Assembly (NCBI RefSeq): GCF_014208105.1
Contig: NZ_JACHMQ010000001.1
Coordinates: 2,480,001 to 2,544,000 of the forward strand
DNA: 64,000 bases
Reading direction: 5' to 3'
Source of the DNA: Actinomadura coerulea
GTDB taxonomy: Bacteria > Actinomycetota > Actinomycetes > Streptosporangiales > Streptosporangiaceae
Part shown: positions 8,770 to 60,756 of the stretch, in pieces
Numbering within the stretch: position 1 is the first letter of the stretch
How the letters are laid out: each line of letters begins with the position of its first letter
The notes under the pieces: model-generated
Seen by the model: only the letters and a program-made list of their open reading frames with translations
Database searches by the model: none
What the model was told of the DNA's origin: nothing
Position numbers and translations under genes: made by a program

Positions 8770-9591
8770 ATGCCCTTCCCCGCGGGGCACGAGCCGCAGG
8801 CTTTCGATCCGACGGCGCCCAACGAGAGCCGGATGCACGACTACTTCCTCGGCGGCAAGGACAACTACGCCGCGGACCGGCAGGCGGCGCTCCAGGCGAT
8901 CGAACTGGCGCCGGAACTGCCGGTCCTGGCGCGCGAGGGGCGCAAGTTCCTGGACCGCGTCGTGCGTTTCCTCGCCGCCGCCGGGATACGCCAGTTCCTC
9001 GACATCGGGACCGGCCTGCCCACCCAGGGAAGCGTCCACCAGATCGCCCAGGCGGTGGCGCCCGACTGCCGGGTCGTCTACGTGGACAACGACCCGGTGG
9101 TCCGCGTCCACGCGCAGGCGCTGCTGGGAGGGGACCCCCGCACCACGGTCGTCGAGGCCGACATGCGGGACGCCGAGGGCATCGCGAGCCACCCCAACCT
9201 GCGCCGCCTGATCGACCTCGACCAGCCGACGGCGCTGCTGTTCTTCCACGTGCTCTACACCGTCCCCGACGACGAGGAAGCGGCGCGGACCGTCCGGCGG
9301 CTGAGCGACCTGATGGCGCCGGGCAGCCATGTCGCGATCTCGCATCCGGTCAGCGACCTGTGCCCGGAGGTCACCGCCAGGCTCGCCTTCCTCTACCAGC
9401 AGGAGACCCACGCGATCCGCGGCACGCCGCGCTCGAACATCCGCAGCAGGGCCGAGGTGGAGAAGCTCTTCTCCGGCTGGGACCTGATCGAGCCCGGCGT
9501 CGTCTACCTCCCCCTGTGGCGTCCCGAGCACGAGACGATCGAGTCGTCCAGGCCGATCTGGAGCGTCGGGGGCGTCGGGCGCAAGCCCTGA
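8770..9591 (+). CDS. SAV2177/DUF574-family SAM-dependent methyltransferase (second copy)
   Basis: A 273-residue paralogue of the protein at 5883-6686. It shares the family N-terminal block (FDPTAPNESRMHDYFLGGKD), the SAM-binding FLDIGTGLPTQ loop and the GVGRKP end. Differences in the middle third suggest a diverged target. ATG at 8770 follows GGAG at 8761-8764; the frame is open upstream but without a ribosome site. It is a single-gene unit behind a palindromic operator. Family substrate is unknown. Confidence 0.88.
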   Translation: MPFPAGHEPQAFDPTAPNESRMHDYFLGGKDNYAADRQAALQAIELAPELPVLAREGRKFLDRVVRFLAAAGIRQFLDIGTGLPTQGSVHQIAQAVAPDCRVVYVDNDPVVRVHAQALLGGDPRTTVVEADMRDAEGIASHPNLRRLIDLDQPTALLFFHVLYTVPDDEEAARTVRRLSDLMAPGSHVAISHPVSDLCPEVTARLAFLYQQETHAIRGTPRSNIRSRAEVEKLFSGWDLIEPGVVYLPLWRPEHETIESSRPIWSVGGVGRKP

Positions 9592-10012
9592 TCCGTCACC
9601 CGGCCGGAGCGCCGTAGGCGCTCACCTGCACCTGGACCTCGACGAGGTCTGGCGCCCCCTCACCGTCTGAGACGCGGGCGGCGCGGCCGGGCTGAAAACC
9701 GATAGCGCCCTGAAGCCGGGACGGGCGCGGGCAGGGAGGGACCTGCCCACGTGAGACTGCTCCCGGACGCGCGGCACGCCGCCCACCCCTCGGGCAATTG
9801 CTAACAATTCATATAGCGAATTGCTTCCGAAGGCCATTCACGGGGCCGACTTCCCGGCTTGGACACCGGCGCATCGGCCCCGGCCCCGGACAGGCCGCCG
9901 CCGCACGAGAATGCGCCACCGCCCGGCCGCAGAACCATTGAGTGTGGTTGGCAATGCGCTACGCTCAACAGTGATTGCTTTGTAGCCGTTCGGTGCGGGC
10001 AGGGGTCGTCAC
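9592..10012. promoter_or_regulatory. Intergenic regulatory region with AT-rich and palindromic elements
   Basis: No gene is supported in these 420 bp. Two features stand out. An AT-rich patch at 9794-9824 carries GCAATTGC, then AATTC and AATTGC repeats with the outer inverted pair GCAATT/AATTGC. Closer to the next gene, TTGAGTGT (9938-9945) and ACGCTCAA (9961-9968) form a 7-of-8 inverted repeat spaced like an operator. Both probably belong to the promoter of the FAD/PEP gene pair. Confidence 0.4.
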
Positions 10013-11887
10013 GTGGGCTTTCCAGAGACCCGACGGGTCGTCATCGTCGGAGCGGGCTTAGCCGGAACCGCCACCGCCATACGGCTCATGCAGTTCGCCC
10101 GGGAACCTTTACAAGTAGTGCTCATAGAGCGGCGACCCGAATATCGCAGTGCGGGCGTCGCCTATCATCCTTCGGGCAACCACTGGCACCACGTCTTCAA
10201 TATTCAGGCGGGCCGCATGTCGATGTTCCGCGAGGACGTCGACGATTTCGTGGACTGGGCCAACACCGAGGCCGACCGGACCGGCTGGCCTCCCGGGTGG
10301 AGCGGCTTCACCTTCACCGAGTCCGGGCCGGCGCCCCGCAGGCTCTACGCCGACTACCTCCGGGCCCGCCTGGCCGAAGCCGCGCAGGAGGCGCCCGACG
10401 GCGTGGAGCTGCTCGGAGTCGACGGCGAGGCGGTCGACATGACGGCCCGCACCGCGGGCGGAACCGGCCGCGTGCGCGTCGTCGTCGAGGAGCGCTCATC
10501 GAAGCGGCCCGGCGCCGCGCCTGGCCCCATGACGATCGACGCCGACCACGCCGTCCTCGCCACGGGGCTGGAGGAACGGAAACTCCCGTTCGCGGCCGGT
10601 GTGGAGGACCACCCCTGCTTCGTACGGCACCCCTACTCCGAGCAGGGGATCGAGCGGATCCTCGGCGTGCGGCGCGACGCCGAGGTCGCCGTCATCGGCA
10701 CGCTGCTCAGCGCGTACGACTCGGCGTCGCTCCTGCTGCGGCACGGCCACACCGGCAAGATCCACATGATCTCGCGCTCCGGGCTGACGCCGCGCACCTA
10801 TCCCTCCGGCCACCGCCACCACGTCCTCGACCTGCCGGCTCCGCGGCTGCACACCGACGGCTACGAGGGGTGCGACGAGCTCGTCCGGCGCTTCAGGGAC
10901 GAGTGGGAACGCGCCTGCGCCCACCTCGCCCGCCGGCATCCCGGCGTGGCGCCCGCGGTCGTGAGCGAGCGCATCGCCAAGTCCTGGGAGCCCCGCCTGC
11001 CCGAGGTCCTGGCCCGGATCCCCTCGGCCGATCTCCGCGCGCTCCTCGACCGGTACGGGAGCCTGCTGGCCACGCTGCGCGTGAGCGCCGTCCCCTACAT
11101 CACCGAGTTCGTCGACGCCGCGATGGCGGAGGGCGGGCCCGTCGCCCTCACCACCGGCACCGTCGGCGGGATCACCGCCACCGAGGCCGGCACCCTGCGG
11201 GTGGCGGTGTCCGGGCCCGTGCCGGCGCGGACCATCGAGGCCGACCTGGTGATCTCCAACTTCGGACGGGAGACCGACTACGGGCGAGTCGGTTCGGCGC
11301 TCTGGAGGAACCTGCTGCGCAGGGGGACCGCAGTACCGCACCGGCGGACCGGGCGCGGCGTCGAGGTGGACGGCCACGGCTTCCTGCTCGGAGCGGCCGG
11401 CGTGCGCACCGCTCCGGTCACCGTGGTCGGCTGCCCCCGGGAGGGCGACGAGATCACCCGGTACGGGCGGATGGGCGCGTTCACGTTCAACCTCGCCGCT
11501 ATCAAGAACCACTCGGTCGGCGTCGCCGCGGCCGTGCTGCGCGACCTCGAATCCTGCTACGACGAGCCGGCCGAGACCGTGTCCAAGGCCGTGGCCCACG
11601 GCGCGGACGACGAGGTGCGCGCGGCGTTCGCCCGCGCGGTCCGCCTCGACGTGCACCGGATGGCCGCCCGGCGCCGCCGGGAACGCCGGGCCCGCGCGGC
11701 GAGCCTCGCGAGCGGACTGCGCGCCCTGCGCGGCGCCATGACCGCCGGCGGCGAGGCCCCCGTGCCGGACGGGGCGCTGCGCTTCGTCGTGAACGCCGCC
11801 GCCACGGCGAGGCTCAACGACCTGTCCGTAACGCCGCGGGAGCTCCGTGCGCTGCTCGAACTCGACGGATCACCGGAGCCGGCATAG
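10013..11887 (+). CDS. FAD/NAD(P)-binding protein (NAD_binding_9 type)
   Basis: A 624-residue flavin-dependent enzyme candidate. The dinucleotide-binding motif VIVGAGLAGTA is at residues 9-20, and a second nucleotide-binding region with AVIGTLLSAYD lies near 230. Family members are large single-polypeptide proteins in actinomycetes and proteobacteria, often of unknown reaction. No signal peptide or membrane helix. GTG at 10013 gives a start 8 residues before the FAD motif. The next gene begins 154 bp downstream on the same strand and encodes a PEP-utiliser fragment; the two are probably an operon. Reaction and substrate cannot be named. Confidence 0.82.
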   Translation: MGFPETRRVVIVGAGLAGTATAIRLMQFAREPLQVVLIERRPEYRSAGVAYHPSGNHWHHVFNIQAGRMSMFREDVDDFVDWANTEADRTGWPPGWSGFTFTESGPAPRRLYADYLRARLAEAAQEAPDGVELLGVDGEAVDMTARTAGGTGRVRVVVEERSSKRPGAAPGPMTIDADHAVLATGLEERKLPFAAGVEDHPCFVRHPYSEQGIERILGVRRDAEVAVIGTLLSAYDSASLLLRHGHTGKIHMISRSGLTPRTYPSGHRHHVLDLPAPRLHTDGYEGCDELVRRFRDEWERACAHLARRHPGVAPAVVSERIAKSWEPRLPEVLARIPSADLRALLDRYGSLLATLRVSAVPYITEFVDAAMAEGGPVALTTGTVGGITATEAGTLRVAVSGPVPARTIEADLVISNFGRETDYGRVGSALWRNLLRRGTAVPHRRTGRGVEVDGHGFLLGAAGVRTAPVTVVGCPREGDEITRYGRMGAFTFNLAAIKNHSVGVAAAVLRDLESCYDEPAETVSKAVAHGADDEVRAAFARAVRLDVHRMAARRRRERRARAASLASGLRALRGAMTAGGEAPVPDGALRFVVNAAATARLNDLSVTPRELRALLELDGSPEPA

Positions 11888-15180: not shown

Positions 15181-16422
15181 ATGGACAGACCCAGCAGACG
15201 CAACGTGTTGATGACCGGTGGGGCGCTCGGAGCGCTCGGCGCCCTCGGCGTCGCCTCGCCCGCGCAGGCGTCCCCTCGGTGGACGTGGTCGCCCGAGGGC
15301 TCGGTGGCGGGAGCGGGCAGGGGCGCCGACCCGCGGTGGGTGTGGGACCCGGAGGCCGACGCGCTGGTCGCCTCGCTGATCGACCGGGGAGACGTCCCCA
15401 GGGTCAACGAGCTGCTCCGCACGTGGACCAAGAACGGCCAGCCGCTGCCGGACGGGCTGCCGACCGACCTGCGCGACTTCATGGAACGCGCCCGCCGGCT
15501 GCCTCCTTGGGCCGACCCGGGCAAGCTGGCCACCGCGTTCGAGTTCAACGAGAAGCGCGGCCTCTACCTCGGCGTCACCTACGGCTTCGCCAGCGGGATG
15601 ATGAGCACGGCCATCCCCAAGGAGGCGCGCGCGGTCTACTACTCCAAGGGCGGCGCGGACATGAGGGACCGCATCACCAAGACCGCCAAGCTCGGCTACG
15701 ACATCGGCTCCGAGAAGGCCTTCGAGCCCGACGGCGAGATGATCGTCACCTGCGTCAAGACGCGGCTGGTGCACGCCGCCGTGCGCCACCTGCTGCCGAA
15801 GTCCCCGTACTGGACCAAGGCGGCCGACGAGAAGATCCCGATCAGCCAGGCGGACATGATGGTCACCTGGCACAGCCTGCCCACGACCGTCATGCAGAAC
15901 CTGGTCAGGTGGAAGGTGCCGATCCCGGACGCCGAGTCCGAGGCGTTCCTGCTGTCCTGGCAGCTCGCCGGCCACATGCTCGGGATCCGGGACGAGTACA
16001 TCCCGAAGTCGTGGGCCGAGGCGAACTCCCAGGCCGAGCAGGTGCTGACCCCGGTGCTCGCGCCGACCCCCGAGGGGGTCAAGCTGGCCGACATCCTGCT
16101 CAACCTCGGCTCCACGATCGACGGCGGGATCCTCACCAAGCCCATCCTCGGCTCGCTCACCCGCTTCATGCTCGGCGACGAGATCGCCGGATGGCTGAAG
16201 ATCCCGCGGGACCCGCTGTGGGACCCGCTCATCCGGACCCTGTGGCCGCCCTTCGTCGCCGTCCGCGAAGGCCTGCTCGACCTCACGAAGGCGCCGAAGG
16301 AGCTGCGGCAGCTCTACTGGGCCTTCGACGAGATCCTCCGCCAGGGCGCCCTGCTCTACCTGTCCGGGTTCACGACGCCGATCAGCATCGAGATCCCGCA
16401 GACCAACAACCCGCACTACTGA
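15181..16422 (+). CDS. lcp: Latex-clearing protein, haem-dependent rubber oxygenase, Tat-exported
   Basis: A 413-residue DUF2236 protein that cleaves cis-1,4-polyisoprene to oligo-isoprenoid aldehydes/ketones. A twin-arginine signal (PSRRNVL, hydrophobic core, SPAQA) marks export. The residues known in the Streptomyces K30 enzyme occur at the same numbers: R164, K167, T168 and H198 (proximal haem ligand, in RLVHAAVR); a lysine at 84 is close to the distal Lys83. This coincidence in numbering and the full length argue for a true Lcp rather than a distant MpaB homologue. ATG at 15181 follows CAGGAGGAGCAGGGC. The oxiAB genes seen beside some lcp genes are absent here. A cytosolic relative lies at 59614-60756. 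Confidence 0.9.
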   Translation: MDRPSRRNVLMTGGALGALGALGVASPAQASPRWTWSPEGSVAGAGRGADPRWVWDPEADALVASLIDRGDVPRVNELLRTWTKNGQPLPDGLPTDLRDFMERARRLPPWADPGKLATAFEFNEKRGLYLGVTYGFASGMMSTAIPKEARAVYYSKGGADMRDRITKTAKLGYDIGSEKAFEPDGEMIVTCVKTRLVHAAVRHLLPKSPYWTKAADEKIPISQADMMVTWHSLPTTVMQNLVRWKVPIPDAESEAFLLSWQLAGHMLGIRDEYIPKSWAEANSQAEQVLTPVLAPTPEGVKLADILLNLGSTIDGGILTKPILGSLTRFMLGDEIAGWLKIPRDPLWDPLIRTLWPPFVAVREGLLDLTKAPKELRQLYWAFDEILRQGALLYLSGFTTPISIEIPQTNNPHY

Positions 16423-54480: not shown

Positions 54481-54494
54481 GTCCTATTAATCCT

Positions 54495-54510
54495 TGTGGG
54501 GATCCCCACA
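54495..54510. promoter_or_regulatory. Perfect 16-bp palindrome TGTGGGGATCCCCACA
   Basis: An uninterrupted 16-bp palindrome in the 231-bp gap between divergent nsrR and the DMT gene, beside the putative NsrR site. Either a second operator or the site controlling the transporter pair. Confidence 0.5.
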
Positions 54511-54679
54511 GTTCCGCCGCGATGGCCGTGACGTGCGGCGATGTCGCGCCCGCCGGTGGCCGCCCGCATCGGGAGGGGCCACCTCCCCGCCTTTCGGTCA
54601 TCCCTATGGGTCGGATTCGGGCACCCGGACCCGGGTAGGGGTCCGGCGCGAGAGTCACGGCGGGAAATCGTGGACGAGG

Positions 54680-55567
54680 ATGAGCCTTCTCGGGATGGGC
54701 GTCGCGGTGGTGGCGGCCTGCCTCATCGGCCTGGGGTTCGTGGCCCAGCAGCACGCGGCGTTCCAGGAGCCGTTGGGACGGATTCTGCATCCGCGCCTGC
54801 TGCTGGACCTGCTGCACAGCCGGCTGTGGCTGGCCGGCATAGCCCTGATGGTCGCCGGCCAGCTCGTCTTCGCGTTCGCGCTCGACCTCGTCGGCGTCTC
54901 CCAGGCCACGCCGGTGCTCACCGTCAACCTCGTCTTCGCTCTGATCGCCGCGCACGTGATCTACCGGGAGCCGTTCGGCGCCAGGGCGCTGCTGGGATCG
55001 CTGATGCTGACCGGCGGGGTGGCGCTGTTCCTCGGGGTCGGGCAGCCGCACGGAGGCGCACCGCCCGGCACGCTGTCGTTCCGCTGGTTGAGCGGAGCGG
55101 TCGTGCTGGTCCTCGCCGCGCTGGTCGGGGTGGCGGGAGGCCATCGGGACCTGCGCGTCCGCGCGATGCTGCTCGCCTCGGCCGCCGGGCTGCTGTTCGG
55201 GCTCCAGGACACGCTGACCCGCAGCGTCGTGCTGCTGTTCGGCACGGGCGTGGCCGACGCCTTCAGGACCTGGCAGCCCTACGGCCTGGTGTGCATCGGG
55301 GCGCTCGCCCTGCTCTTCGCGCAGAGCGCCTTCGACGCGGCGCCGCTGCGCATCTCGCTGCCCGCCAGCACGGCGGCCGAGCCGCTGACCGCGATCGCGC
55401 TGGGTGTCGCGATCTTCGGCGAGCGGATCCGGCTGTCCCCCCGTGACCTGGCCCTCGAGGCGCTGGGGCTGGCGGGCATGGTGGCGGGCATCGTCGTCCT
55501 CGGCCGGTCGCCGTATCTCGGCAAGCCGGGCGAGCTGGCGTCCCGGGACGGGGGCGGGGGCCAGTGA
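54680..55567 (+). CDS. DMT-family transporter
   Basis: A 295-residue membrane protein with nine or ten predicted helices in the two-repeat DMT layout, including VSQATPVLTVNLVFALIAAH and PASTAAEPLTAIALGVAIFG. The frame is open 62 codons upstream; ATG at 54680 starts the first helix and has GACGAGG close by. It overlaps the next transporter gene by 4 bp (GTGA), so the two are coupled and may form a heterodimer, as in some DMT pairs. Substrate unknown. Confidence 0.85.
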   Translation: MSLLGMGVAVVAACLIGLGFVAQQHAAFQEPLGRILHPRLLLDLLHSRLWLAGIALMVAGQLVFAFALDLVGVSQATPVLTVNLVFALIAAHVIYREPFGARALLGSLMLTGGVALFLGVGQPHGGAPPGTLSFRWLSGAVVLVLAALVGVAGGHRDLRVRAMLLASAAGLLFGLQDTLTRSVVLLFGTGVADAFRTWQPYGLVCIGALALLFAQSAFDAAPLRISLPASTAAEPLTAIALGVAIFGERIRLSPRDLALEALGLAGMVAGIVVLGRSPYLGKPGELASRDGGGGQ

Positions 55568-56433
55568 TCGCCGTCATCCTCGGCCTGCTGGGCGGAGCCG
55601 CCAACGCCCTGGCCTCGGTGCTCCAGCGCCGGGCCGCCCGGGGCGCGCCCGAGGCCGACGCCTTCAAGCCGTCCCTCATCCTCGACCTGCTGCGGCAGCC
55701 GCTCTGGCTCGGCGGGGTGGGCGCTCTCATCGCCGCGTTCGCCCTGCAGGCCGCGGCGCTGTCGATGGCGGGCCTCGCGCTCGTCCAGCCGCTGCTGGCC
55801 TCCGAACTGCCGTTCACCATGATCCTCATCGCCTGGTTTCCGCCGCGCGGGCTGCGCCAGGTGCCGTGGACGGGCGTCGTCGTCCTCACCGTGGGCCTGG
55901 CCGCGCTGCTCGTCGCCGCCTCCCCCAGCGAGGGCCTGGGCACGCCGGGGGCCGGCGAGTGGATCATCGCGACGGCCGCCACGGTGGGATGCGCCGCCGC
56001 CCTGGTCGCGGCGGCGTGGTCCATCCGCGGACCCTTCCGCGGCGTGCTGCTGGGAGTGACGACGTCCCTGGGCTTCGCGCTGACGGCGGCGTTCATGAGG
56101 ACGGCCACGCGCGCCTTCTCCGACGGGTTCGTCGCCGTCCTGACCTCCTGGGAGCTCTACGCGATGGCCGTGGCGGGGACGGCGAGCCTCTTCCTGCTCC
56201 AGAACGCGCTCCAGAGCGGCAGCCTGGTGGCGGTGCAGCCCGCCCTGACGGTCACGGACCCGGCCGCCAGCATCCTGCTGGGCGTCGGCCTCTTCGACGA
56301 GAGCATCCGGACCGGTCCGTGGATCGCCGCGGAGGTCCTGGGCATCGTGCTGATCCTGCTCGGCAGCGCCGTCATCGCCCGGTCCCCCCTGCTGCACGAC
56401 GAGCGCGCCGTCACCCCAGCGCGGCGCGAATGA
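55564..56433 (+). CDS. DMT-family transporter (partner of preceding gene)
   Basis: A 289-residue protein of the same family, with the repeat signatures ALVQPLLASELPFTMILIAW and VAVQPALTVTDPAASILLGV. GTG at 55564 is inside the end of the first transporter gene. Equal size, coupling and related sequence suggest a two-component exporter. Its 3' end overlaps the convergent glycosyltransferase gene by 23 bp. Confidence 0.87.
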   Translation: MIAVILGLLGGAANALASVLQRRAARGAPEADAFKPSLILDLLRQPLWLGGVGALIAAFALQAAALSMAGLALVQPLLASELPFTMILIAWFPPRGLRQVPWTGVVVLTVGLAALLVAASPSEGLGTPGAGEWIIATAATVGCAAALVAAAWSIRGPFRGVLLGVTTSLGFALTAAFMRTATRAFSDGFVAVLTSWELYAMAVAGTASLFLLQNALQSGSLVAVQPALTVTDPAASILLGVGLFDESIRTGPWIAAEVLGIVLILLGSAVIARSPLLHDERAVTPARRE

Positions 56434-57484
56434 CGTGGTCGGCCTGAGCTGCGTCGAACAGCAGGTCCACCCGGCGTTGCCGGGCCCTGCGCGCCCGCTC
56501 GCCCCCGAGCCCGTCCAGGATCTCGAGGAGTTCGGCGGGCGACCGCGCGAGGGCGCTCAGGCCCGCCCGCGCCATCGCCTCGGCTCCGTCGCGTCCGTGG
56601 CCGGGGATGGGGCGGTGGGAGACGACCGGCAGCCCGCACGCGAACGCCTCCCGGCACGTCTGCCCCGCCGCGTTGTCGACCAGGGCGTACGCGCCCGGCA
56701 TCAGGGCGGGCATGTCGTCCCGCCAGCCGAGGGCGTGCCCGATCCCGTCCTCGCGGAGCCGGGCGCGCAGCCGCCCGTTCCGCCCGCACAGCACGACCGG
56801 CACGTACCGGCCGGACGCCGCGAGCCCGCGGGCCGTCTCGGTCACCCCGCCGATGCCCCAGGCGCCCGCGGAGACCAGCACGATCCGCTCCCCGGGCCGC
56901 GCGCCGACCGCGCGGCGCAGCCGTCCGCCGTCGCCGGCGCGCCGGAACCCGGGCCGCACCACGGGCGCCACGCGGGCGGCCGGACGTCCCGTCCGCTCCG
57001 CGACCGCGCGCGCCGAGGCCTCGTCCGGGCACAGGTAGCGGTCGTTGCCCGGGTGGGCCCACATCCGGTGGGCGGCGAAGTCGGTCACCAGCACGAGCGA
57101 CGGCGCCTCCAGCCGCCCGCGCAGGCGCATCCACCCCGCGGCCTGCGCCGCGACATGGAAGGTGGACACCACCGCGTCCGGCGGCAGCTCCCCCGTCCGC
57201 CGCTCCAGCCCCCTGGCGATCAGGACGGTGAGCGGCGAGGCCGGCGGCGGGCCCGGCGCCACGAAGAACTCCTGGTAGACCCACTCGTACAGCCACGGCG
57301 CCCCGCGGAGCATCGCCCCGTACATCCGCCGGAGTCCGTGCCCGAGGCGCAGCGGCACCAGGTCCAGCACGTCGACGACGCACACCTCCACGCCCCGCGG
57401 CGCGATCCGGCGCGCCAGCTCCCCGGCGACGGCGTCATGGCCCGCCCCCATCGCGGCCGAGAGGATGAGGAGTCGTTTGCCCAT
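56411..57484 (-). CDS. MGDG-synthase-type glycosyltransferase (GT28)
   Basis: A 357-residue retaining-type processive glycosyltransferase relative. The N-terminal MGDG_synth domain opens with LLILSAAMGAGHDAVAGEL; the C-terminal nucleotide-sugar domain has VLVSAGAWGIGG, a DDMPALM loop and NAAGQTCREAFACGLPVV. Such enzymes add galactose or glucose to diacylglycerol or similar lipids at the membrane. Divergent by 29 bp from a polysaccharide deacetylase gene, suggesting a joint role in envelope glycans or glycolipids. Confidence 0.87.
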   Translation of the reverse strand: MGKRLLILSAAMGAGHDAVAGELARRIAPRGVEVCVVDVLDLVPLRLGHGLRRMYGAMLRGAPWLYEWVYQEFFVAPGPPPASPLTVLIARGLERRTGELPPDAVVSTFHVAAQAAGWMRLRGRLEAPSLVLVTDFAAHRMWAHPGNDRYLCPDEASARAVAERTGRPAARVAPVVRPGFRRAGDGGRLRRAVGARPGERIVLVSAGAWGIGGVTETARGLAASGRYVPVVLCGRNGRLRARLREDGIGHALGWRDDMPALMPGAYALVDNAAGQTCREAFACGLPVVSHRPIPGHGRDGAEAMARAGLSALARSPAELLEILDGLGGERARRARQRRVDLLFDAAQADHVIRAALG

Positions 57485-57513
57485 GCGATCGATCCCCCTG
57501 TGAAACTGGTCCC

Positions 57514-58245
57514 ATGTCGCATCTGACGCGGGCTCTCGCCGGGGTCCTGCTGGCGCACGCCCTGCCCGCCGCGACCTGGCTTCCGCCCGTCCGCCTCCTG
57601 ACGCCCCGCCTCGCCGGCCGCGGCGGGGCCCGCCATGTCGCGCTCACGCTGGACGACGGGCCCGACCCGCGCTCCACGCCCCTCTTCCTGGACGAGCTGG
57701 CCCGGCTCGGCTGCCATGCGACCTTCTTCGTCCTCGGCGCGATGCTCCAGCGCGACCCGTCCCTCGGCCGGCGCATCGTCGCCGACGGCCACGAGATCGC
57801 CGTCCATGGGTGGCACCACGGCAACGCCCTGTTGGCCCGCCCCGGCCGCGTCTCGGCCGAGGTGCGCCGCACCGTCCGCCTCATCGAGGACGTCTGCGGC
57901 ACGACCCCCGCCTGGTACCGCCCCCCGTACGGTGTCCTCACCGCCGAAGCCCTCTTCGCGGCCCACCGCGACGATCTGAGGCCCGTTCTGTGGACGGCGT
58001 GGGGCAAGGACTGGACGGCATCCGCGACGCCCCGTTCGGTGCTGGCCACGCTTTCCCCGGGCCTGGACGGGGGCGCGACGCTCCTCCTGCACGACAGCGA
58101 CGCCACCTCGGCGCCGGGCGCGTGGAAAGCGTCTCTCGGCGCCCTCCCCGGCGTGGTGGCGGCCTGCCGCGCCACCGGCCTGGCCGTCGGCCCGCTACGC
58201 GACCACGAGGTCCACTCCGCAAGGACGTCACCTGGTCACTCATAA
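57514..58245 (+). CDS. Polysaccharide deacetylase (NodB-type)
   Basis: A 243-residue carbohydrate esterase family 4 protein. After a hydrophobic N-terminus (signal or anchor, 1-25) come motif 1 TLDDGPDP (catalytic Asp and metal Asp), motif 2 HGWHH (metal His), motif 3 RPPYG and motif 5 LLHDSD. All catalytic residues are present. It removes acetyl groups from extracellular or cell-wall glycans. Divergent partner of the MGDG-type glycosyltransferase. Confidence 0.92.
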   Translation: MSHLTRALAGVLLAHALPAATWLPPVRLLTPRLAGRGGARHVALTLDDGPDPRSTPLFLDELARLGCHATFFVLGAMLQRDPSLGRRIVADGHEIAVHGWHHGNALLARPGRVSAEVRRTVRLIEDVCGTTPAWYRPPYGVLTAEALFAAHRDDLRPVLWTAWGKDWTASATPRSVLATLSPGLDGGATLLLHDSDATSAPGAWKASLGALPGVVAACRATGLAVGPLRDHEVHSARTSPGHS

Positions 58246-58345: not shown

Positions 58346-58373
58346 TTGTGAACCGCCGCTTTCCTGATATCAC
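58346..58373 (+). promoter_or_regulatory. Promoter of the polyprenyl synthase operon
   Basis: TTGTGA (58346-58351) and TATCAC (58368-58373) are separated by 16 nt, followed by the ribosome site AAGGAG at 58388-58393. Good housekeeping-type match directly before the three-gene operon. Confidence 0.5.
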
Positions 58374-58399
58374 TGACTGCGACGACAAAGGAGCGGAAA

Positions 58400-58645
58400 G
58401 TGATGATGGGGCAGTCTGACGGAAGAGTCGGCTCACGGAGTGAAGTGCTCTGCCTGGCCGCCGGGTTCGCCGACGTGGTGGCGGAGGGGCTGCGGGGCCT
58501 GACCCGGCGCGTGCCCGGCCCGGCCGAGGTGCGGCAGGAGCTCCGCGCACGCGGTGAGCTGGCGCTGCGGCGCAGCGGCGCGGCCCCGGAGGCGCACATG
58601 GAGGTCCTGGCCCGCCGGGCCGCCGCGCGGCTCCGCGATGGCTGA
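58400..58645 (+). CDS. Small helical protein, first gene of the polyprenyl synthase operon (81 aa)
   Basis: A soluble, Ala/Arg/Leu-rich peptide predicted as two or three helices (CLAAGFADVVAEGLRGLTRR; EVRQELRARGELALRR). No family recognised. GTG at 58400 or the ATG at 58403 both fit the AAGGAG site. Its last 8 bp overlap the start of the synthase gene, so translation is coupled. An adaptor, small subunit or substrate carrier for the following enzymes is possible; nothing shows which. Confidence 0.75.
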   Translation: MMMGQSDGRVGSRSEVLCLAAGFADVVAEGLRGLTRRVPGPAEVRQELRARGELALRRSGAAPEAHMEVLARRAAARLRDG

Positions 58646-59621
58646 CCTGCGGACCCGGGTCGACCGGGCGCTGGAGGAGTTCGTCGAGGCGGAGACCGCC
58701 GAGCTGCTGGCCCTGGACGGCGAGCTCGCGCCCGTCGCCGACCAGTTGCGGATCTCGGTCGGCGGCGGGAAGCGGATCCGCCCGGCGTTCTGCTACTGGG
58801 GGTGGCGCGCGGCGGGGCAGCCCGACACCGACGCCGTGGTCCGCGCGGCGGCGGCGCTGGAACTGGTGCACGCCGCGGCGATCGTCCACGACGACGTCAT
58901 CGACCGCAGCCCGATGCGGCGCGGGCGGCCGAGCGCGCACGAGCGGCTCGGCGACGCCCTCGCCATCATGGTCGGCGACCTGCTGGTGGCGTGGGCCGCG
59001 GAGCTGTTCCACTCCTGCGGCCTGCCGCGCACCTTCCTCGGCCGGGCGATGCCGCTGTGGACGGCGATGGGGCGCGAGCTCGTGGCGGGCGAGTGCCTGG
59101 AGATCCTGCGGACCGGGGCGGCGCCGGACGTGGCCCGGTCGCTGGCGATCGTGCGGTTCAAGACCGGCTCCTACACCGTCGAGGGGCCCCTGCGGATCGG
59201 CGCGGTGCTGGGCGGGGCCGCCGCGCCGACCCTGGACGCGCTGGCCGCCTACGCCCGTCCGCTCGGAGAGGCCTTCCAGTTGCGGGACGACCTGTGGGGC
59301 GTGTTCGGCGACCCGGGCCGGACGGGCAAGTCGTCCCTGGACGACCTGGCGGGCCGCAAGCCCACCGCCCTGCTCGCGCTGACCCTGACCGACGCCGCCG
59401 AGCCCGACCGCCGGCGCCTGCGGGACCTGCTGGACGGACCGCTCACCCCGGACGGCGCCGCGGAGATCCGGGAGATCATGCTCCGCGCCCGGGCGCCGGC
59501 CCGCGTCCGGCAGATGATCGACGAGCGCGCGCACGCCGCGCACGCGGCCCTCGCCGGCACCCGGCCGGACGCCGCCGACGCCCTGGCCCGACTGATCTGC
59601 GAGGTGACCGCCGATGACTGA
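58638..59621 (+). CDS. Polyprenyl diphosphate synthase
   Basis: A 327-residue trans-prenyltransferase. It condenses isopentenyl diphosphate with an allylic diphosphate. The first Asp-rich motif DDVID (85-89) and the second DDLWG (217-221) bind Mg2+; GGGKRIRP (42-49) is the phosphate site. The residues 4 and 5 before the first motif are both Ala, leaving room for chains longer than C15, so a C20 or longer product is likely. ATG at 58638 overlaps the previous stop by 8 bp; the stop overlaps the oxygenase start by 8 bp. The pairing with an Lcp-like oxygenase is unusual. Confidence 0.93.
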   Translation: MADLRTRVDRALEEFVEAETAELLALDGELAPVADQLRISVGGGKRIRPAFCYWGWRAAGQPDTDAVVRAAAALELVHAAAIVHDDVIDRSPMRRGRPSAHERLGDALAIMVGDLLVAWAAELFHSCGLPRTFLGRAMPLWTAMGRELVAGECLEILRTGAAPDVARSLAIVRFKTGSYTVEGPLRIGAVLGGAAAPTLDALAAYARPLGEAFQLRDDLWGVFGDPGRTGKSSLDDLAGRKPTALLALTLTDAAEPDRRRLRDLLDGPLTPDGAAEIREIMLRARAPARVRQMIDERAHAAHAALAGTRPDAADALARLICEVTADD

Positions 59622-60756
59622 GTACACCGACCGGTACATGGACGCTCTGCGGCTGAAGGGCGACCCGCTCGCCGACGCGACCGTCGAAGCCCTGTTCGGC
59701 ACGGGGGAGGTGGGCAGGTACAACACCCTCATGCGCTGGTTCACGACCTCCGGGCAGGCGCTCCCCGAGGGCCTGCCCGACGCGGCGCGCGACTACCTGC
59801 ACGCCACCGCGACCCCGCCGGACTGGATCGACTGGGGCGTCATGGAACAGGCGCGGCAGTTCTTCCTCGACAACGACGTCCACGTCTCCACCGCCCTGTC
59901 GTTCGCGGCGATGCCGGCCTGCTACGTCGTCCCGCACGTGGCCAAGCTGCTGTCGGCCACGCACTCGCTGGCCTACCCCTCGCGCCGGATGGCCGAGACG
60001 GGGCAGTTCACCGTCTACCTCATGCAGCCCGACGCGTTCCAGGCCGGCGGGCGGTTCCTCCCCGCGGCGCAGAAGGTCCGGCTGCTGCACGCCTCCATCC
60101 GCCGGCACCTGAAGGAGGAGGGCCGCTGGCCCGAGCCCGTCGCGATCTGCCAGGAGGACATGCTCGGCGGGCTGATGATGTTCAGCATCCAGGTCCTGGA
60201 CGCCCTGCACCGCATGGGCGTCCACATCACCGCCGAAGGCGCGGACGCCTACTACTACGCCTGGCGCGTCGTCGGCACCATCCTCGGGATCGACCTCGGC
60301 ACCATCCCCCCGGACCTCCCGGCGGCCCGGGAGTTCTCCGACCGGTACATGGTGCGCCACATGGGCCCCTCCCCCGAGGGGGCGCACCTGACGCGGCAGC
60401 TGATCGACATGTATGAGCAGGTCGTGCCCGGGACGCTGCTCGACCCGATCGTGCCCGCGCTCATCCGCTACCTCGTCGGCGACACGTCCGCGGACTGGCT
60501 CCAGGTGCCGCGCACGCGGTTCGACTCCCTCATCGGGCTCGCCCCGGCCCTGCTGGGCGCGCTGGAATGGGTCGAGGACCGCGGGCCGTGGGCCGAGTAC
60601 ATCTCCGACCGGCTCGGCCACCTGGTCACCATGCTGGAACTGTCGTCCCTGACGCGGGGGCGCGTCATGCACTACGCCATCCCCCAGGAACTCAAGTCCG
60701 ACTTCGGGGTGCCCTCGAAGAACGCCCGCTGGACCCCGCCCGGCCCTGCTCTCTGA
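59614..60756 (+). CDS. Cytosolic Lcp/MpaB-like (DUF2236) oxygenase
   Basis: A 380-residue DUF2236 haem-oxygenase candidate. R125, T129 and H159 (RRMAETG and RLLHASIR) have the same spacing as R164, T168 and H198 of Lcp, including the proximal haem His; the Lcp Lys167 is Glu128 here. No signal peptide, so it acts inside the cell, unlike the Tat-exported Lcp at 15.2 kb. MpaB-family enzymes cleave prenyl chains. ATG at 59614 overlaps the polyprenyl synthase stop by 8 bp, strongly suggesting that it oxidises or cleaves that enzyme's product. Confidence 0.87.
   Translation: MTEYTDRYMDALRLKGDPLADATVEALFGTGEVGRYNTLMRWFTTSGQALPEGLPDAARDYLHATATPPDWIDWGVMEQARQFFLDNDVHVSTALSFAAMPACYVVPHVAKLLSATHSLAYPSRRMAETGQFTVYLMQPDAFQAGGRFLPAAQKVRLLHASIRRHLKEEGRWPEPVAICQEDMLGGLMMFSIQVLDALHRMGVHITAEGADAYYYAWRVVGTILGIDLGTIPPDLPAAREFSDRYMVRHMGPSPEGAHLTRQLIDMYEQVVPGTLLDPIVPALIRYLVGDTSADWLQVPRTRFDSLIGLAPALLGALEWVEDRGPWAEYISDRLGHLVTMLELSSLTRGRVMHYAIPQELKSDFGVPSKNARWTPPGPAL

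Follow-up and report, generated by a model that had tools for sequence, protein, structure and literature searches.

In Actinomadura coerulea, the genes of an 81-aa protein, a polyprenyl diphosphate synthase and an oxygenase of the Lcp/MpaB family stand together as a trio whose composition is conserved in an all-or-none fashion, and whose oxygenase carries an active site that is rewired in comparison to the rubber oxygenase Lcp. Co-function of the three genes is strongly supported. The explanation that we favor, and to which we give an even chance, is a self-contained, horizontally scattered cytosolic isoprenoid cassette, in which the synthase would make a prenyl chain, the haem oxygenase would subsequently oxidize or cleave it and the small protein would work with the synthase.

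The window, that is the whole stretch of 64,000 nucleotides analyzed here, covers positions 2480001-2544000 of a host genome (G000) consisting of a single contig of 8.19 Mb. All three genes lie on the forward strand (+). The first (58400..58645) has a GTG start, is preceded by an AAAGGAG ribosome-binding site (58387..58393, +) and encodes the 81-aa protein, which by Pfam and NCBIfam falls outside known families, is modeled with three helices and is present in trio loci. The second (58638..59621) encodes a trans-polyprenyl diphosphate synthase of 327 aa (PF00348), assigned by profile, alignment and tree. It was counted from the ATG at 58638; the mechanical open reading frame begins further upstream. 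Profile, fold and tree assign the third (59614..60756) as a haem oxygenase of the Lcp/MpaB family (PF09995), 380 aa in length and with no visible export signal. Both junctions are exact 8-bp overlaps, as an earlier sequence-only reading had stated: ATGGCTGA between small gene and synthase (58638..58645, +) and ATGACTGA between synthase and oxygenase (59614..59621, +).

Conservation of the trio in relatives, on which that reading had staked itself, proved to be strong, with the trio at 14/14 class genomes, 12/12 genus loci, 40/40 named loci and 71/72 Streptomyces loci. Three separate profile searches in 296 genomes of the class returned the small protein and the two clades, of synthase and oxygenase, from the identical 14 genomes (G000, G102, G120, G175, G186, G196, G224, G236, G262, G271, G304, G330, G340 and G346), the searches having scored the best first-look candidates per genome (17, 6, 7), such that a lone distant copy could escape. 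According to the listed coordinates, the three genes lie side by side, in order and on one strand in all 14. E-values in these genomes were at most 1.1e-20 for the small protein, 3.1e-226 for the oxygenase and 6.7e-159 for the synthase, and the next-best synthase reached 6.3e-112. The oxygenase gene of G224 contains one in-frame TGA. Two further oxygenases, from G312 (3.1e-97) and G232 (8.7e-61), fall outside the clade and have no trio synthase or small protein within the surrounding 20 kb. Weak matches to the small protein (E 4e-4 to 0.009) in 11 of the 296 genomes were put down to chance, as those genomes lacked any trio-clade oxygenase or synthase.

The same arrangement was found in closer and wider samples. 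Within the genus, 12 of 60 genomes carry the oxygenase (E at most 1.6e-164), and the three genes are present at each of the 12 loci, one of which (L018) is truncated where its contig ends. Among named genomes, 40 loci were retrieved, all with the trio, spanning Actinomadura, Actinoallomurus, Thermomonospora, Sphaerisporangium, Streptosporangium, Nonomuraea, Streptomyces, Kitasatospora, a Catenulisporales MAG and a Streptosporangiaceae MAG; among these, L052 has only the small-gene end on its contig, the synthase is broken in L057, and in L078 the small gene is broken and the oxygenase match truncated. Streptomyces sp. SirexAA-E (locus L073) is a laboratory strain with the trio. In Streptomyces, 78 of 246 genomes encode the oxygenase, all at E of 4.2e-184 or below (cut-off 1e-90), and the trio is present in all 77 of them with readable upstream DNA. 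Six of the 78 belong to the 14 class genomes; at the 72 newly examined loci the trio is in order and on one strand in all except G463, which ends at a contig end. A sample of the whole phylum yielded the trio in 5 of 296 genomes, all from the same class. The oxygenase also matched seven plasmid records. Of these, five are megaplasmids of Streptomyces, between 0.5 and 1.6 Mb in size, whose oxygenase is 67-72% identical and each of which has the trio; the other two matches are distant (30-33%).

The trio might be switched through its own upstream element. In the window, motif scanning located a conserved element, CTGATATCACTGACTGCG (also written CTGATATCACTNNCTGYG), with the palindrome TGATATCA (58364..58381, +). 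This Actinomadura-lineage element, first spotted by eye, is found at the trio with at most one mismatch in 6 of 10 genomes from the genus or family that have the trio. It has 16 matches in total, the other 10 each with two mismatches, against 10 matches for the backward control, which makes for weak evidence. In the Streptomyces-type loci, a pattern based on TCACTCG-N2/3-GTG stands upstream of 42 of 93, compared to a mean of 0.06 in 50 plain shuffles, the pattern having been drawn from some of the same sequences and some species being counted twice. The 19-bp element GATCACTCGWTSGTGAGTT, at two mismatches or fewer, produced 14 matches in 12 hand-chosen trio-bearing Streptomyces genomes. Twelve of these matches lie just upstream of the trio, one per genome, and the backward pattern gave 0; hence, the element is nearly exclusive to the trio. 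In Streptomyces, the element TCACTCGATCGTGA is similar to the BldM Group I site. Control by BldM was rejected as it stands, because that site, given as TCACcCgnncGgGTGA in the excerpt of PMC4125116, has two more central bases. Scans of the trio for sigma-70-type promoters and for terminators returned nothing, and neither did Rfam at gathering scores between 58150 and 60900. The single promoter proposed for the three genes was not borne out by the empty sigma-70-type scan, but conserved upstream elements with a putative regulatory function are present.

The identity of the synthase is well supported. It scores 166 bits against a curated Pfam cut-off of 27 for PF00348 (E 1.2e-48) and has both Asp-rich motifs, the first at D85-D89 (DDVID, 58890..58904, +), preceded by A79-A81, and the second at D217 D218, which is invariant in all 19 aligned trio synthases. 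The small residues claimed to precede the first motif are indeed there, with Ala at -4 and -5 in 19/19 of these proteins; seven other synthases of the class have C, S or G at -5. In prenyl synthases, small residues before the first Asp-rich motif let the chain exceed C15. The enzyme would condense IPP onto an allylic primer, giving an all-trans prenyl diphosphate that, judged from the Ala pair only, may be C20 or longer. The actinobacterial GGPP and FPP/GFPP synthases (3lk5, 8f8f and the paralogue of the host, G000:C1:667262) likewise have both Asp-rich motifs and include the best PDB matches. The trio synthases differ from them in forming their own clade, in the A-A before the first motif and in reading K/R-P-T (T-P-T in L044) where these relatives have GKRT or GKQT. 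The best NCBIfam match, NF041169 (Family 2 encapsulin cargo polyprenyl transferase; 228.6 bits, residues 37-321), is yet far under its cut-off of 450. An encapsulin cargo was rejected on this score and on the ends flanking the matched core, which count only 36 residues in front and 6 behind. Such cargo is described with a large unannotated terminus in the excerpt of PMC8346489. Among the best 25 of 100 families from 97 neighbor proteins, no encapsulin shell gene was present.

The small protein matched nothing in Pfam or NCBIfam, and its best PDB profile match (E 0.14) was taken as chance. The model is all-helical with three helices, at modest to low confidence (pLDDT 68.1, pTM 0.31), and a Foldseek search with it gave no match, which says little for a model of this quality. 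The best-conserved stretches are LAAGxAD, RARG and AHLEVLAR. Two annotated megaplasmids label the protein 'polyprenyl synthetase'; of 26 small proteins scanned, none matches PF00348. No fusion to the synthase occurs in the 77 loci examined, and an apparent negative gap in L210 is not a fused open reading frame. With gene starts picked by script, small gene and synthase gene overlap in 37 of the 40 named loci (28 by 8 bp, 6 by 11 and 3 by 4). The junction between synthase and oxygenase has the 8-bp overlap in 13 and a longer one in 2, and is open in 25, namely in 3 Actinomadura-type loci and in all 22 of the Streptomyces type. Across the named loci the junction overlaps exceed chance. Because its gene stays overlapping the synthase gene in both lineages, the small protein probably serves the synthase as subunit or docking partner.

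A more specific version of this role, compatible with the favored cassette and in our judgment somewhat short of an even bet, is that the synthase is heteromeric, with the 81-aa protein as the subunit for its chain length or activity, and that the protein does not act as an oxygenase scaffold. Small subunits of this kind are known from hexaprenyl and heptaprenyl diphosphate synthases. The all-helical model agrees with this proposal, as do the overlap with the synthase gene at 37/40 loci, set against a synthase-oxygenase junction that is open in 22/22 Streptomyces-type loci, and the Ala pair at -4/-5, which leaves the cavity unblocked at that point. However, the protein has no Pfam or PDB relative and hence no detected homology to known small subunits.

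That the third gene encodes an Lcp/MpaB-family protein was confirmed by its score against PF09995 (MPAB_Lcp_cat; 62.8 bits, curated Pfam cut-off 23, E 6.6e-17). Lcp was the only PDB relative found by profile at E up to 1 (LcpK30, open and closed, 3.7e-35) and the top fold match of the model (Z 16.6, rmsd 3.6, 222 aligned residues). The model is poor (mean pLDDT 54.6), and the substrate channel is unreadable from it. In the excerpts of PMC5522427 and PMC6311187, Arg164, Thr168 and His198 are haem-site residues of Lcp, Lys167 is the distal ligand and Glu148 the base. Alignment places R125 (59986..59988, +) at Arg164, T129 (59998..60000, +) at Thr168 and H159 (60088..60090, +) at the proximal haem ligand His198, in exactly the R-x3-T-x29-H spacing that had been claimed; Arg, Thr and His are kept in all 20 aligned trio oxygenases. 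This spacing is shared with LcpK30 (5o1l/5o1m), and the fold is the same by profile and model. The trio oxygenase would be expected to bind haem b via His159, with Arg125 and Thr129 alongside, as Lcp does.

The trio oxygenase differs from LcpK30 in that it lacks a visible Tat signal and both Glu148 and Lys167, adjoins a prenyl synthase gene and belongs to a separate clade. V109 (59938..59940, +) occupies the position of the catalytic base Glu148, and E128 (59995..59997, +) that of the distal haem ligand Lys167. Among the 20 aligned proteins, the former position holds V in 16, I in 3 and G in 1, the latter E in 19 and A in 1. Lcps of relatives, one of them from the same window, keep both residues in 19/19. 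Two more distant oxygenases (L142 and L143) are also without the Glu and have E for the Lys; therefore, the replacement is probably older than the trio. As proposed, inspection by eye revealed no export signal at the N-terminus, nor in any of the 20 aligned trio oxygenases. A twin-Arg signal was seen by eye in 18 of the 19 Lcps of relatives, that of L023 not lying in the frame read. The host genome hence encodes both an exported-type Lcp and a trio oxygenase without visible signal. Crude hydropathy alone was useless as an export test, because the most hydrophobic 19-aa stretch of the trio oxygenase (mean 1.45, from residue 270) is equaled by that of the Tat-type Lcp in the window (1.45), which is N-terminal, from residue 8 of the translated stretch.

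The rewired active site bears directly on the reaction. In the favored cassette, the oxygenase would use O2 to cleave a C=C bond of the prenyl chain, or of an alcohol derived from it, releasing an apo-isoprenoid with an aldehyde or ketone end. Formation of aldehydes had been part of the sequence-only reading and stays a proposal, the residues that mark Lcp, Glu148 and Lys167, being replaced in 20/20 trio oxygenases. Loss of their equivalents may mean a different reaction, and thus oxidation other than cleavage is possible. An unlikely but serious rival is therefore that the enzyme hydroxylates, epoxidizes or desaturates the prenyl chain without cutting it. The change of Glu148 to V, I or G and of Lys167 to E or A throughout the clade, with both residues retained in the Lcps of relatives, speaks for this, all the more as Glu148 is the proposed cleavage base of Lcp in the excerpt of PMC5522427. 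However, a monooxygenase would need a reductase partner, and the trio encodes none. The fold also matches a second PDB entry, named t-anethole oxygenase, at a Z of only 5.5 that means little alone; this enzyme presumably cleaves alkenes, which would also count against a non-cleaving reaction. An enzyme from P. putida that bears this name is described in an abstract as a flavoprotein.

That the oxygenase acts on the product of the synthase is the natural reading. The three trio genes encode no phosphatase, dehydrogenase or reductase that would finish or detoxify an aldehyde. A bolder form of the favored explanation, which we consider improbable, is a minimal three-gene apo-terpenoid pathway, in which a new cytosolic clade of rubber-oxygenase-like enzymes would cut fresh prenyl diphosphate as a source of volatiles or signals, the three-helix protein handing over the chain. 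A cut beside the diphosphate would yield methyl ketones of the geranylacetone or farnesylacetone type and glycolaldehyde diphosphate, and a cut at the far end an omega-aldehyde prenyl diphosphate.

Somewhat less probable still is that the oxygenase acts on another isoprenoid, such as a quinone tail, a carotenoid, a hopanoid or a dolichol-like lipid, with the synthase supplying the precursor and membrane-lipid remodeling as the outcome. Neither a cyclase nor a prenyltransferase or phosphatase is encoded in the cassette itself, and the host genome encodes five further PF00348 proteins, which could feed the oxygenase in place of the trio synthase. Against this stand the many genomic settings in which the trio is kept without a shared neighbor, which fit a pathway complete in three genes. 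Beyond the trio, any one gene family occurs in at most 8 of 41 loci and any one Pfam family in at most 4 of 97 sampled neighbor proteins, and no neighbor function was enriched in these two sets. In three loci (L065, L069 and L070), an extra, distant prenyl synthase lies just upstream of the trio; confined to these, it was rejected as a general fourth gene of the cassette.

With no flanking genes in common between loci, the trio has the look of a movable cassette that is complete in itself. In Streptomyces chromosomes of one contig, its position ranges from near an end through to the middle. The trio synthases form one clade (SH-aLRT 98), as do the trio oxygenases (SH-aLRT 99), in trees built quickly and with only 10 and 22 outside rows, the long branches to which were flagged. 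Both trees set the Actinomadura type apart from the Streptomyces-type rows, and small inner groups match; the placement of L072 differs slightly between them. Unshared flanks and matching one-clade trees thus indicate that the three genes were passed on and moved together, as one unit, and seem to suffice. That three unrelated genes merely hitch-hike on mobile DNA is barely credible: the trio does occur on megaplasmids and at many chromosomal places, but each readable locus retains all three members in the same order and on one strand, in Streptomyces and Actinomadura types without common flanks. Overall, the sequence-only reading held for conservation, family identities and the lack of a visible export signal, and went beyond the data in its cleavage to aldehydes and, with only the Ala pair to point to, in its C20 or longer chain.

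Fungal MpaB has a membrane-anchor helix, and the Pfam name describes MpaB as ER-bound; as a crude gauge of such an anchor in the trio oxygenase, hydropathy peaks at the mean of 1.45 from residue 270 given above. The trio oxygenase shares PF09995 with MpaB and Nro1 and was set against them by description only; it differs from MpaB in being encoded with its own prenyl synthase and in having Lcp as its PDB relative by profile. PMC12724181 reports oxidative cleavage of a farnesyl side chain by MpaB in mycophenolic acid biosynthesis, and cleavage of C=C bonds by bacterial kin of the family such as Nro1. Among open-licence PMC papers, searches for DUF2236, MpaB or latex clearing protein with polyprenyl or diphosphate synthase gave no description of the trio; subscription papers may differ. 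Latex clearing protein with Streptomyces and polyprenyl led to one review, in the excerpt of which 'polyprenyl' refers to plant rubber, and of 191 papers matching any two of MpaB, oxygenase and polyprenyl, the best 20 include none that combines MpaB with polyprenyl. Twelve papers of this collection mention DUF2236. The trio thus appears uncharacterized in the open-access literature.

Judged by its oxygenase, the cassette is found in 78 of 246 sampled Streptomyces, with the trio read in 77 of these, a genus among the most mined for natural products, and yet seems to have escaped characterization. A family known mainly for rubber degradation and for fungal MpaB may here have a natural prenyl substrate in the cytosol, and the trio oxygenase is a natural active-site variant of Lcp from which to learn which residues decide cleavage. 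As three adjoining genes, it is a compact genetic unit for making oxidized isoprenoids. Should the apo-terpenoid pathway be true, the trio, present in about one third of the sampled Streptomyces species, would serve soil actinobacteria as a dedicated source of apo-isoprenoid volatiles or signals.

The loss of Glu148 (LcpK30 numbering) and a glutamate in the place of Lys167 are features that the oxygenases of the trio share with two distant oxygenases outside it. Alignment revealed both changes in the proteins encoded at about 9428-10510 of locus L142 and at 9606-10790 of locus L143, and by eye these genes adjoin acyl-CoA dehydrogenase-like or chaperone-like genes. The window itself holds an Lcp-type rubber oxygenase on the + strand (15181-16422), 42 kb from the trio. 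When aligned with Lcps, this protein retained the equivalents of Glu148, Arg164, Lys167, Thr168 and His198 intact, and a Tat-like signal was recognized by eye. In the whole A. coerulea genome, 11 matches to PF09995 and six to PF00348 were found. In one searched genome (G224:C1:3471917-3473047) the trio oxygenase is interrupted by an in-frame TGA, reflecting either a pseudogene or a sequencing error.

In public annotation, the small protein of the trio is named 'polyprenyl synthetase' at two Streptomyces megaplasmid loci (L218, 4609-4893; L219, 4532-4816). Contrary to this naming, none of the 26 trio small proteins scanned matched PF00348. At the first of these megaplasmid loci, the gene that immediately precedes the trio (L218, 2849-4414) is annotated as an oleate hydratase.

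In three Streptomycetaceae loci, the trio is immediately preceded by a second prenyl diphosphate synthase gene of a distant branch (L065, 5443-6516; L069, 5447-6520; L070, 5449-6522). In the window, the trio is preceded by genes (54494-58245) for two transporter-like proteins, an MGDG-synthase-like glycosyltransferase and a polysaccharide deacetylase. Of the 40 named loci, L041 alone has these genes too, and they are therefore placed outside the cassette. Upstream of the Streptomyces trios lies a 19-bp element (for example G516:C1:7737823-7737841), which is nearly private to the trio. Together with the preceding base, many copies of this element contain the palindromes GTGATCAC and CGATCG.
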